From positions 379,501 to 443,500 of the forward strand of contig NZ_CP094975.1 in NCBI RefSeq assembly GCF_023509015.1: a stretch of 64,000 bases of DNA, given 5' to 3'. The notes below the pieces were generated by a model. The model was not told where the DNA came from. It saw only the letters and a list, made by a program, of their open reading frames with translations, and ran no database searches. The number at the start of each line of letters is the position of its first letter. Within the stretch, counting starts at the first letter, position 1. Both the position numbers and the translations under genes were made by a program. This DNA is from Pseudomonas abieticivorans. Its GTDB lineage: Bacteria > Pseudomonadota > Gammaproteobacteria > Pseudomonadales > Pseudomonadaceae. Shown here in pieces: positions 13,825 through 36,006 of this stretch.

Positions 13825-13876
13825 AATATGGTCGGGACGGAGTGATTCGAACACTCGACCCCTAGCACCCCATGCT
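13825..13876. repeat. Right att site within functional tRNA-Pro
   Basis: It is identical to 3554-3605 and supplies the 3' half of the intact tRNA-Pro gene. Confidence 0.92.
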
Positions 13877-13905
13877 AGTGCGCTACCGGACTGCGCTACG
13901 CCCCG
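13829..13905 (-). tRNA. tRNA-Pro (anticodon GGG)
   Basis: The 77-base cloverleaf has acceptor strands CGGGGCG and CGTCCCG (one G-U pair), an anticodon stem CTAGC/GCTAG with loop ATGGGGT giving anticodon GGG, a T loop TTCGAAT and an encoded CCA. It is the integration target of the island and stays complete because the incoming att restores its 3' half. Confidence 0.96.
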
Positions 13906-19374: not shown

Positions 19375-21296
19375 TACTCCGAATCATGGCGACCACGCCG
19401 GGAAACCGCTTGTGCAAGGAACTCGGCGAATTGGGCGACGGGCATGGAGCCCAGGTCAGCGCCTTCACGGGTACGCACAGCGACAGTTTGCGTTTCGACT
19501 TCCCGATCTCCGATGACGAGGAGATAAGGAACCTTGAGCAAAGTATGCTCGCGGATTTTAAAGCCGATCTTTTCATTTCTCAAGTCAGACTTGGCACGAA
19601 ATCCGCTCTGAGCCAGGTTTTTTTCTACTTCGAGGGCAAATTCTGCTTGTTTATCAGTGATATTCATGACCACTGCCTGCGTTGGCGCGAGCCAGGCAGG
19701 GAATGCACCTTCGTAGTGCTCGATCAGGATACCGATAAAACGCTCGAACGAGCCGAGAATTGCGCGGTGAAGCATGACCGGATGTTTACGGCCGTTGTCT
19801 TCGGTGACGTACTCGGCACCCAGACGGATCGGCAGGTTGAAATCGAGTTGCAGCGTACCGCACTGCCAGACGCGACCCAGGCAGTCCTTCAGGGAAAATT
19901 CGATTTTCGGACCGTAGAAGGCGCCTTCGCCCGGCTGCAGGTCATACGCAAGACCTGCATTATCCAAAGCAGCGGCTAGCGCAGCCTCGGCACGATCCCA
20001 CAATTCGTCGGAACCTACACGCTTTTCCGGACGAGTTGACAGTTTAAGTTGAATATCCTTGAAGCCGAAGTCCGAATACACGTCCATGGTCAGCTTGATG
20101 AAATCAGCCGATTCGGATTGCATCTGCTCTTCGGTGCAGAAGATGTGCGCGTCGTCCTGAACGAAGCCACGCACGCGCATGATGCCGTGCAGCGCGCCCG
20201 AAGGCTCGTTGCGATGGCACGCGCCGAACTCGGCCAGGCGCATCGGCAGCTCGCGGTAGCTCTTCAGGCCCTGGTTGAACACCTGTACGTGGCACGGGCA
20301 GTTCATCGGTTTGATGGCGTAGTCGCGGCTTTCCGACTCGGTGGTGAACATGTTCTCGGCGTAGTTGGCCCAGTGCCCGGATTTTTCCCACAGGCTGCGG
20401 TCAACCACTTGCGGCGTCTTTATCTCAAGGTAGCCGTTGTCGCGCTGCAACTTGCGCATGTACTGCTCGAGCACCTGGTAGGTGGTCCAGCCGTTGGGGT
20501 GCCAGAACACCATGCCCGGCGCTTCTTCCTGAAGGTGGAACAGGCCCAGGCGCTTGCCGATCTTGCGATGGTCGCGTTTTTCGGCCTCTTCGATGCGCTT
20601 GACGTAGGCTGCCAGCTGCTTCTTGTCAGCCCAGGCCGTGCCATACACGCGCTGCAATTGCTCGTTCTTGGCATCGCCACGCCAGTAGGCGCCCGACAGC
20701 TTGGTCAGTTTGAACGACTTCAGGAAGCGGGTGTTCGGCACGTGCGGACCGCGGCACATGTCGACGTATTCTTCGTGATAGTACAGGCCCATGGCCTGTT
20801 CATCGGGCATGTCCTCGACCAGGCGCAGCTTGTATTCCTCGCCACGGGCCTTGAACACCTCGATCACTTCGGCACGCGGCGTGACTTTCTTGATCACGTC
20901 GTACTCGGTGTCGATCAGTTGCTGCATGCGCGCTTCGATGGCAGCCATGTCGTCCGGGGTGAACGGGCGCTCGAACGCGATATCGTAATAAAAGCCTTCT
21001 TCGATGACCGGGCCGATCACCATTTTCGCCGTCGGGTACAGCTGCTTGACCGCATGACCCACCAGGTGCGCGCAAGAGTGGCGGATGATTTCCAGCCCTT
21101 CTTCGTCTTTGGGGGTGATGATCTGCAAGGTGGCGTCGCTGGTGATCATGTCGCTGGCGTCGACCAACTGGCCATTGACCTTGCCGGCCACGGTGGCTTT
21201 TGCCAGGCCTGCACCAATGGATGCGGCGACATCGGCTACCGATACCGCATGATCGAACGAACGCTGACTGCCGTCGGGAAGAGTAATAGTTGGCAT
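19374..21296 (-). CDS. thrS: Threonyl-tRNA synthetase
   Basis: The start [10 protein letters not shown] (21296) has GAGAGGAGG upstream. The 640-residue enzyme has the TGS domain, the N2 editing domain with [16 protein letters not shown], and class II catalytic motifs including the zinc ligands (NCPCHVQVF). It charges tRNA-Thr and clears mischarged serine. Its 3' end carries the infC ribosome site. The leader contains two anticodon-like hairpins described separately. Confidence 0.98.
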
Positions 21297-21315
21297 GGCG
21301 CCTCCTCTCCTAGTG

Positions 21316-21521
21316 GTGACCCCTACCAAAGGTCACGTGGGTTGGGATGAGCCAGTACGCGATTCGTACCAGGCCGTTCGCATGCGAACGCCTGCCTTAC
21401 AACGGCAGGAGCCTATTAGGCCAACCGGTAACCGAACCAGAGTGACTGGATAGTAATAAAGAAAACCCGATGTTGCGGTTGCCAAAGCAGCGACCAGACA
21501 CCATCAAGGCCGCACATCCTA
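21316..21521 (-). promoter_or_regulatory. thrS leader with two tRNA-Thr anticodon-arm mimics
   Basis: On the minus strand two hairpins precede the thrS ribosome site. Distal (21391-21409): stem CCTGCC/GGCAGG, 7-base loop GTTGTAA, i.e. U33, anticodon UGU, A37. Proximal (21316-21336): stem GTGACCT/GGGTCAC with one G-U pair, 7-base loop TTGGTAG, i.e. U33, anticodon GGU, A37. Both triplets are threonine anticodons. A palindrome GTTCGCATGCGAAC lies between them. TAGGAT at 21521-21516 is a likely -10, which gives a leader of about 210 bases. E. coli thrS is repressed by ThrRS binding two such mimics; the same control here is inferred. Confidence 0.6.
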
Positions 21522-21650
21522 GCACAGATAAACGCTAAAAAACCTTGCCCGCAGGCGCCGCCGGCGGTAGGAAACGGCTGAGGAACTTGCACTTACATTT
21601 CTGGCTCCTATGTAAAGTAAGTTACTTCTTCCACAAAGGAGCACCTCGCT

Positions 21651-21953
21651 ATGCGTTTCCAGTCTCTCTTCCCCCTCGCCGCCTGCCTGGCCTTCGCCCT
21701 GCCTATCAGCGCCCACGCCGGTGAGTGGCCTGCGGGCGCCAAGGCCTCATTCCTCAGCCAGTGCGAAAGCGCGGCCGGGGAACGCGTGGGTGCGGCGGCC
21801 GCCAAGACCCATTGCGAATGCAGTGAAAAAGCCATCAGCTCGAAAATGAGCTCTGATGAACTTAAGTCTGTAGCCAATTCCGACCAGGGGGTGGACCCTG
21901 CCCTGCAGAAGAAAATGATGGACGCAGCCCAGGGTTGCCGCACCAAGAAATAG
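21651..21953 (+). CDS. Small exported protein, 100 aa
   Basis: AAGGAG precedes the ATG. The signal peptide MRFQSLFPLAACLAFALPIS ends at AHA. The mature 77-residue helical protein has four Cys (SQCES, HCECSE, QGCRTK). Similar small periplasmic proteins occur in Pseudomonas without known function. It is monocistronic, with a GC-rich tail region. Confidence 0.75.
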   Translation: MRFQSLFPLAACLAFALPISAHAGEWPAGAKASFLSQCESAAGERVGAAAAKTHCECSEKAISSKMSSDELKSVANSDQGVDPALQKKMMDAAQGCRTKK

Positions 21954-35746: not shown

Positions 35747-35822
35747 TGGTAGGCGCGATTGGACTCGAACCAACGACCCCCACCATGTCAAGGTGGTGCT
35801 CTAACCAACTGAGCTACGTGCC
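35747..35822 (-). tRNA. tRNA-Val (anticodon GAC)
   Basis: A complete 76-base cloverleaf: GGCACGT acceptor, anticodon stem CCACC/GGTGG with loop TTGACAT (anticodon GAC), T loop TTCGAGT, encoded CCA. Confidence 0.96.
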
Positions 35823-36006
35823 TGCTGTGAGGCGGCATTCTACGGAATTACGCCATGCTGTCAATCAATTTTTTTAGCTAACCCCCTGAATAAGCGCAAT
35901 TTTTAGTAAAAAGCGCACGACAGATTTTTCATCCGACGCTGGCAGGGCCATTTGATCTCAGGTAGCATCCGCCCATACGTTAAAAATATTAAACAGAGGT
36001 TTCAGG

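Follow-up and report, generated by a model that had tools for sequence, protein, structure and literature searches.

The thrS Leader and Its Two Anticodon-Arm Hairpins

The window, i.e., the whole 64,000-nt stretch of contig NZ_CP094975.1 of Pseudomonas abieticivorans that was analysed, carries thrS on the minus strand (19377..21296; ATG at 21296, stop codon 19374-19376), encoding a threonyl-tRNA synthetase (ThrRS) of 640 amino acids. Two hairpins resembling tRNA anticodon arms precede the gene on the same strand. The proximal mimic (21316..21336), the equivalent of E. coli domain 2, reads GUGACCU-UUGGUAG-GGGUCAC from 21336 to 21316. Its stem pairs GUGACC (21336-21331) with GGUCAC (21321-21316) and is closed by U21330.G21322; only with this closing pair does the loop have 7 nt, and otherwise it has 9 nt. 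In tRNA numbering the loop UUGGUAG (21329-21323) presents U33, the anticodon GGU and A37, and six of its seven bases are those of the loop of the organism's own tRNA-Thr(GGU), UUGGUAA. The distal mimic (21391..21409), CCUGCC-GUUGUAA-GGCAGG, has a stem formed by 21409-21404 and 21396-21391 and a loop, GUUGUAA (21403-21397), that presents U33, UGU and A37 and likewise shares six of seven bases with its tRNA counterpart, the tRNA-Thr(UGU) loop CUUGUAA.

An earlier sequence-only reading of this DNA had described two hairpins with 7-base loops ahead of thrS on the minus strand, in which the threonine anticodons UGU and GGU are flanked by U33 and A37. Both hairpins are indeed present at those places, with the anticodons in register in both window loops. 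The same reading put the proximal hairpin about 20 bases from the start codon and close to the ribosome site, in agreement with the 19 nt found between the end of the proximal stem and the ATG, and with the Shine-Dalgarno sequence AGGAGG, assigned from sequence, that lies between them (21301..21306, minus strand). The proximal stem is followed directly by a CACU flank (21312..21315, minus strand), which is also found in E. coli.

The distal mimic is part of a larger domain, all on the minus strand. An outer helix, P1, joins CCAGU (21445..21449) to ACUGG (21356-21352), and a second helix, P2, joins GGUUCG (21433..21438) to CGAAUC (21366-21361). A small GCC/GGC hairpin (21411..21421) lies within the domain just 5' of the distal mimic, and a lineage-specific extra hairpin, CGUUCGCAUGCGAACG (21375..21390), comes after it; in an alignment read by eye, this extra hairpin is absent from relatives or swapped for other sequence. 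The distal domain is connected to the proximal arm by a linker equivalent to E. coli domain 3 (21337..21351), which is almost invariant in the genus.

Folding of the 191-nt window leader alone gave a minimum free energy z-score of -1.69, with 13 of 200 shuffled sequences folding as well. This fold contains the distal arm and lacks the proximal one, whose 5' arm is paired with an upstream GGUUAC instead. When the hairpins were folded singly, the distal one came out as drawn, and the proximal loop was closed further, to three bases. Support for the proximal arm thus comes from comparative evidence, none of it from single-sequence folding. A role of the linker as a clamp on the Shine-Dalgarno sequence was considered and found no support: RNAalifold pairs the two, yet the columns barely vary, and shuffled linkers give about the same access to the Shine-Dalgarno sequence (its predicted probability of being unpaired is 0.32 for the real linker and averages 0.28 over 200 shuffled ones, 127 of which gave values at or below the real one).

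Conservation of the Proximal Arm

Leaders for comparison were taken from 80 named contigs, from loci in seven more genomes of the genus, and from the class (125 leaders, one per family); three divergent leaders of the genus and one paralogue leader were added. The class set derives from 137 genomes, 135 of them with thrS. Besides the window's own genome there were 134 with the gene, from which 125 leaders were used and nine excluded (truncated matches, an internal stop or a contig end). For aligning proximal arms, leaders were selected only by the anchor CAYCACT within 90 nt of the start codon, which shares the last three bases of the 3' side of the stem.

The anchor was found in 107 of 218 leaders, and all 107 have G35-U36 in register. 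They include the 48 leaders that we call the Pseudomonas set (the window, L004-L035, L042, L048, L051, L057, L074, L086-L092 and L218-L220), which takes in Stutzerimonas, Azomonas and one MAG named only Gammaproteobacteria. Among the 51 distinct anchored 25-mers, U33 is kept in 48 and A37 in 42, and position 34 is free (C in 22, G in 18, U in 7 and A in 4). The stem is 93.8% paired over these 51 sequences, with five of seven pairs changed on both sides. Of 500 shuffles, none did as well as the real alignment in pairing percentage, in covariation score or in the count of doubly changed cells, whereas 16 did as well in doubly changed pairs and 95 in the number of pair types. Inside the Pseudomonas set the stem is 100% paired and nearly invariant (five of seven pairs never vary and none is doubly changed), so that the covariation support comes from the wider relatives. 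Aligning relatives to look for stem covariation and a retained NGU loop, a check that the sequence-only reading had proposed, therefore came out in its favour, with five of seven proximal pairs covarying and G35-U36 present in 107 of 107 leaders.

The same signal appears when hairpins are counted by a rule that leaves out the anchor. When hairpins of at least 6 bp and with 7-nt loops are counted in the 60 nt before the start codon, GU at positions 35-36 occurs in 24 of the 125 one-per-family leaders and any other dinucleotide in at most 4, and therefore the GU hairpins are not due to chance. Over 200 nt the counts are 25 for GU and 17 for AC, the latter perhaps from tRNA-Val genes (read by eye) lying upstream. 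All 32 leaders L004-L035 carry a GU hairpin within 60 nt of the start. The anchor is missing from 111 of 218 leaders, including all betaproteobacterial and Xanthomonadales-type named loci that were fetched; 13 of the 80 named leaders are without it, e.g., those of Variovorax, Comamonas, Lysobacter and Luteimonas.

Invariant G35-U36 next to a free position 34 is the pattern expected of a partner that would read G35 and U36 of the anticodon and ignore the wobble base. This bears on the idea that thrS is controlled by transcription attenuation or by a T-box-like tRNA sensor. T-box leaders are RNAs of synthetase genes that relate expression to tRNA supply; they sense tRNA directly and have a specifier loop, an antiterminator and a terminator, and T-box control of thrS is known in Bacillus. 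The conservation found here tracks the bases of the tRNA-Thr anticodon loop and not a codon-specifier loop. Moreover, no family in Rfam 15, T-box included, matches the window leader up to E=1 (nor does any match the E. coli thrS leader), and a scan of 21280-21760 found no terminator-like site or promoter. We regard this type of control as hardly credible for the window leader.

Relationship to the E. coli Operator

The leader of E. coli MG1655 contains GUGAUCU-UUCGUGU-GGGUCAC-CACUG at the place corresponding to the proximal arm, and a stem with the loop AUUUGUUG farther upstream; these are taken to be domains 2 and 4, respectively. By sequence, the E. coli anticodons are CGU in the proximal and UGU in the distal arm. 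One review assigns CGU to both stem loops (PMC7373986), against the UGU of the MG1655 distal loop sequence. The presence of two different anticodons, which the sequence-only reading had considered a neat twist, is thus nothing new, since the E. coli sequence already combines CGU and UGU. A covariance model, R2, was trained without E. coli on the window together with 26 of 28 distinct leaders from other named loci; it matched the E. coli arm at its exact position with 33.4 bits. The proximal arm of the window and domain 2 of the E. coli operator are thus homologous.

The two leaders share the gene, the position, the CACCACU flank, G-U in both arms, and the presence of two arms that differ at position 34. 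They differ in the mimic loop, which has 7 nt in Pseudomonas and 8 in E. coli, and, with the E. coli leader as described in PMC3858243, in the Shine-Dalgarno sequence (AGGAGG vs. a weak UAAGGA) and the linker (CUCAUCCCAACCCA vs. a U-rich one). The distal part is also built differently: in Pseudomonas the mimic is accompanied by an outer helix, by a small hairpin and, depending on the species, by one more hairpin, as compared to one long irregular hairpin in E. coli.

The synthetases are alike as well. Window ThrRS and E. coli ThrRS have 413 of 635 residues identical (65%) in one alignment over residues 1-634, which covers the N-terminal domain and the anticodon-binding domain. Of the E. coli contact residues, N575, R583, E600 and R609 are identical in the window enzyme and R589 is replaced by lysine. 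Window ThrRS matches 1qf6 and the chain sequence of 1evk/1kog; the ThrRS of 1kog, a structure that holds the operator, has the E. coli sequence.

The Distal Domain in Pseudomonas and Near Kin

For the whole-region alignment, the 48 leaders of the Pseudomonas set were reduced to 40 distinct ones, which represent Pseudomonas and near kin. The distal loop has G35-U36 in 40 of 40, with U (32), C (4) or A (4) at position 34. U33 occurs in only 7 of 40 and A37 in 18 of 40. The claim that U33 and A37 are present in both loops therefore holds for this strain and fails for the distal arm of its relatives. The distal stem is 99.2% paired, with two of six pairs changed on both sides. In helix P2, five of the seven counted pairs are doubly changed at least once, the seventh being unformed in the window, and in the small hairpin before the distal mimic this applies to three of three pairs. 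Outer helix P1 is 96.8-100% paired yet almost invariant, and support for its pairing is weak. For the structure as a whole, 97.1% of the cells are paired, as compared to 20-47% when the partners are slid by 1-3 columns, and none of 500 shuffles reaches any of five measures. By these comparative measures the Pseudomonas distal domain is a real structure, built unlike the long E. coli hairpin.

Second arms were counted by a strict rule, which asks for at least six continuous pairs and a 7-nt loop with in-register GU no more than 120 nt upstream of the proximal arm. The distal arm of E. coli escapes this rule, so that the counts of second arms are lower bounds. A second arm was scored in 46 of the 48 leaders of the Pseudomonas set (L032 and L218 fail with a 5-bp stem), but in only 4 of the 71 leaders outside the set that have a proximal arm. 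These four, one from an Oceanospirillaceae MAG (L069) and three from near Rheinheimera (L081-L083), are no more than were found for other dinucleotides. By the same lower-bound count, 67 of 71 have one arm only, among them Halomonas, Marinomonas, Acinetobacter and Psychrobacter; Halopseudomonas (L036), counted among the others, has no strict distal arm. A two-arm grip may therefore not be general. A more tolerant search (7-9 nt loops, one mismatch) was discarded for its high background, with GU in 23 of 59 leaders and AT in 37.

Such single-arm leaders would fit an operator that consists of the proximal arm alone, with ThrRS binding one arm and the distal element being a structural hairpin in which GU is incidental or serves another purpose. 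The same view would account for the 33 of 40 distal loops without U33 and the 22 of 40 without A37. It has difficulty with the distal loops, all 40 of which keep G35-U36 next to a position 34 that varies among U, C and A, and with E. coli, where the distal arm is recognised by ThrRS according to PMC11088916 and where the loop of that arm also contains G-U. We consider a one-arm operator in Pseudomonas unlikely, although it is the most serious competitor to a grip on both arms.

Specificity and Spread of the Leader Family

A second covariance model, R1, was built from the 51 leaders and used for genome scans, in which 150, 150 or 57 first-look candidates per genome were scored. In the window's own 6.7 Mb genome, where 150 of 4405 first-look candidates were scored, the thrS leader reached 39.3 bits and the next match 18.6 bits. 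The scan of the order covered 136 genomes of at least 90% completeness, 130 of them with thrS, and scored 57 first-look candidates per genome; R1 gave at least 100 matches at E≤0.05. Of these 100, 95 are on the thrS strand and no more than 250 nt upstream of the gene, and they come from 94 of the 130 thrS genomes. Four of the five matches away from thrS score 26.4 bits or less. The fifth match, G386:C51 with 39.9 bits, is found where its contig ends; the start directly after it reads MPNIT, so that it too is probably ahead of a thrS. Genome G386 has two thrS-type leaders with strong arms, on C51 and C45 (L312, L313), one of them cut by the contig end, which reflects either a duplicate gene or a mixed assembly. 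Across the class, R2 recognised 47 of 125 one-per-family leaders outside its training set at E≤0.01 (44/100 + 3/25).

The close link to thrS bears on another explanation, namely that the structure is conserved for docking of the ribosome or for stability of the mRNA, e.g., as a standby site, through S1 or by RNase protection, with no binding of ThrRS. The arm does lie beside the Shine-Dalgarno sequence, and in E. coli the same region belongs to a split ribosome-binding site, as stated in PMC3858243. Docking or stability would leave unexplained both this link and the invariant presumed ThrRS identity bases beside a free wobble position, and we give such a role little credence.

No R1 match was found upstream of thrS in 36 of the 130 thrS genomes of the order. 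The leaders of 35 of these were inspected; the G406 leader is truncated where its contig ends. Diverged arms are seen in several (e.g., G344, G350 and family f145), and two, G359 and G408, hold three-arm arrays. In family f151 (L292, L294, L296, L298, L300) the proximal arm is shortened or altered, with loops such as UUGGUAC and without the CACCACU flank. Many relatives (L281, L288, L291, L292, L294 and others) have a tRNA gene, tRNA-Val by eye, directly upstream of thrS, about where the distal domain lies in Pseudomonas.

A ThrRS regulon beyond thrS found no support in three of the weaker R1 matches (in G013, G007 and G020): no same-strand ORF of at least 60 amino acids starts in the 100 nt that follow them. 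Three genomes of the genus (G134, G070, G044) and three of the order (G300, G301, G330) have second ThrRS genes, with 51-63% identity to that of the window. None of the four leaders of such genes that were fetched (L221, L314, L315, L316) holds a mimic arm. Producers of obafluorin carry an inhibitor-resistant ThrRS copy, and by analogy the second genes are perhaps such copies.

Leaders With Tandem Arms

Some leaders carry arms in tandem; those of G291, G293 and G187 lie outside the 71 tested by the strict rule. In G293 (L265, 234-292) two complete arms lie 34 nt apart ahead of thrS, and in G187 (L155) two arms, both with G33, lie 33 nt apart. This two-arm layout is unlike that of E. coli or Pseudomonas. 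In the G291 family, three of four aligned leaders (G291/L276, G359/L287 and G408/L282) have three tandem arms with a spacing of 35-38 nt. Those of G408 read UGU, CGU and GGU, the third arm of G359 has six of seven pairs, and U33 is not kept in every arm of the three-arm leaders. The fourth aligned leader (G331, L285) has decayed arms, and a fifth thrS of the family (G384), whose product is 59% identical to that of the window, has no arms. With any other dinucleotide in place of GU, none of these four aligned leaders had more than one such hairpin. Among the loci compared, the named ThrRS nearest to that of G291 is from Marinobacterium marinum (75%).

These arrangements could mean that the thrS operators form one widespread gammaproteobacterial RNA family that started from a single ancient arm mimic and in which the number of mimics can evolve: many lineages would have one arm, Pseudomonas and E. 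coli two arms with dissimilar distal domains, G293 and G187 a tandem of two, and G291, G359 and G408, of a family near Marinobacterium, three. We give this proposal even chances. If true, a single dimer holding one arm with each subunit is not the general rule, and the number of arms may tune the strength of repression or bring in further dimers. The need for a symmetric two-arm grip can be examined in these relatives, which show one, two or three recognisable arms.

A Putative Translational Operator

In E. coli, ThrRS binds both arms, represses its own mRNA and keeps the 30S subunit away, and tRNA-Thr competes for the synthetase, according to PMC7373986, PMC11088916, PMC3858243 and PMC9976931. 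In the window, the arms, their covariation, the conserved identity bases, the homology to E. coli domain 2, the association with thrS and a full-length, E. coli-like ThrRS are established. We consider it highly probable from these comparisons that the window leader is a thrS translational operator in its Pseudomonas form, with ThrRS gripping both arms and tRNA-Thr relieving the repression. In a free ThrRS dimer, each of the two anticodon-binding domains would hold one of the mimics and read its G35 and U36 as in tRNA-Thr. The bulk of the bound enzyme would keep the ribosome off the Shine-Dalgarno sequence just downstream, and tRNA-Thr, by competing for ThrRS, would lift the repression. For Pseudomonas we infer the binding, the repression, the tRNA competition and the placement of one arm per subunit.

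A related case is the mRNA of yeast AspRS, which PMC9976931 and PMC6542539 describe as autoregulated via an anticodon-like motif. There too a synthetase binds an anticodon mimic in its own mRNA, with the difference that the organism is a eukaryote and the synthetase another one.

The thrS leader would extend textbook RNA mimicry from E. coli to Pseudomonas and part of its class. To our knowledge, mimicry in thrS mRNA is a textbook case known from E. coli only. We found no description of the thrS leader in Pseudomonas in the open-licence literature searched, which does not show its absence from print. The anchored leaders also constitute a record of natural mutagenesis, in which the wobble base of the mimic is free and G35-U36 is unchanged, and they point to an RNA family that Rfam could add. 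For a specialist, the less expected aspects may be that the leader is spread across part of the class, that position 34 is free and that the arms number from one to three.

Neighbouring RNA Features in the Window

On the plus strand of the window, 22183-22504 matches the cspA thermoregulator family RF01766 with 72.6 bits (E 2.7e-17), below the gathering score of 78, and this match overlies a small gene that, read by eye, resembles one for a cold-shock protein. The minus strand also carries genes for tRNA-Pro(GGG) at 13829-13905 and tRNA-Val(GAC) at 35747-35823.
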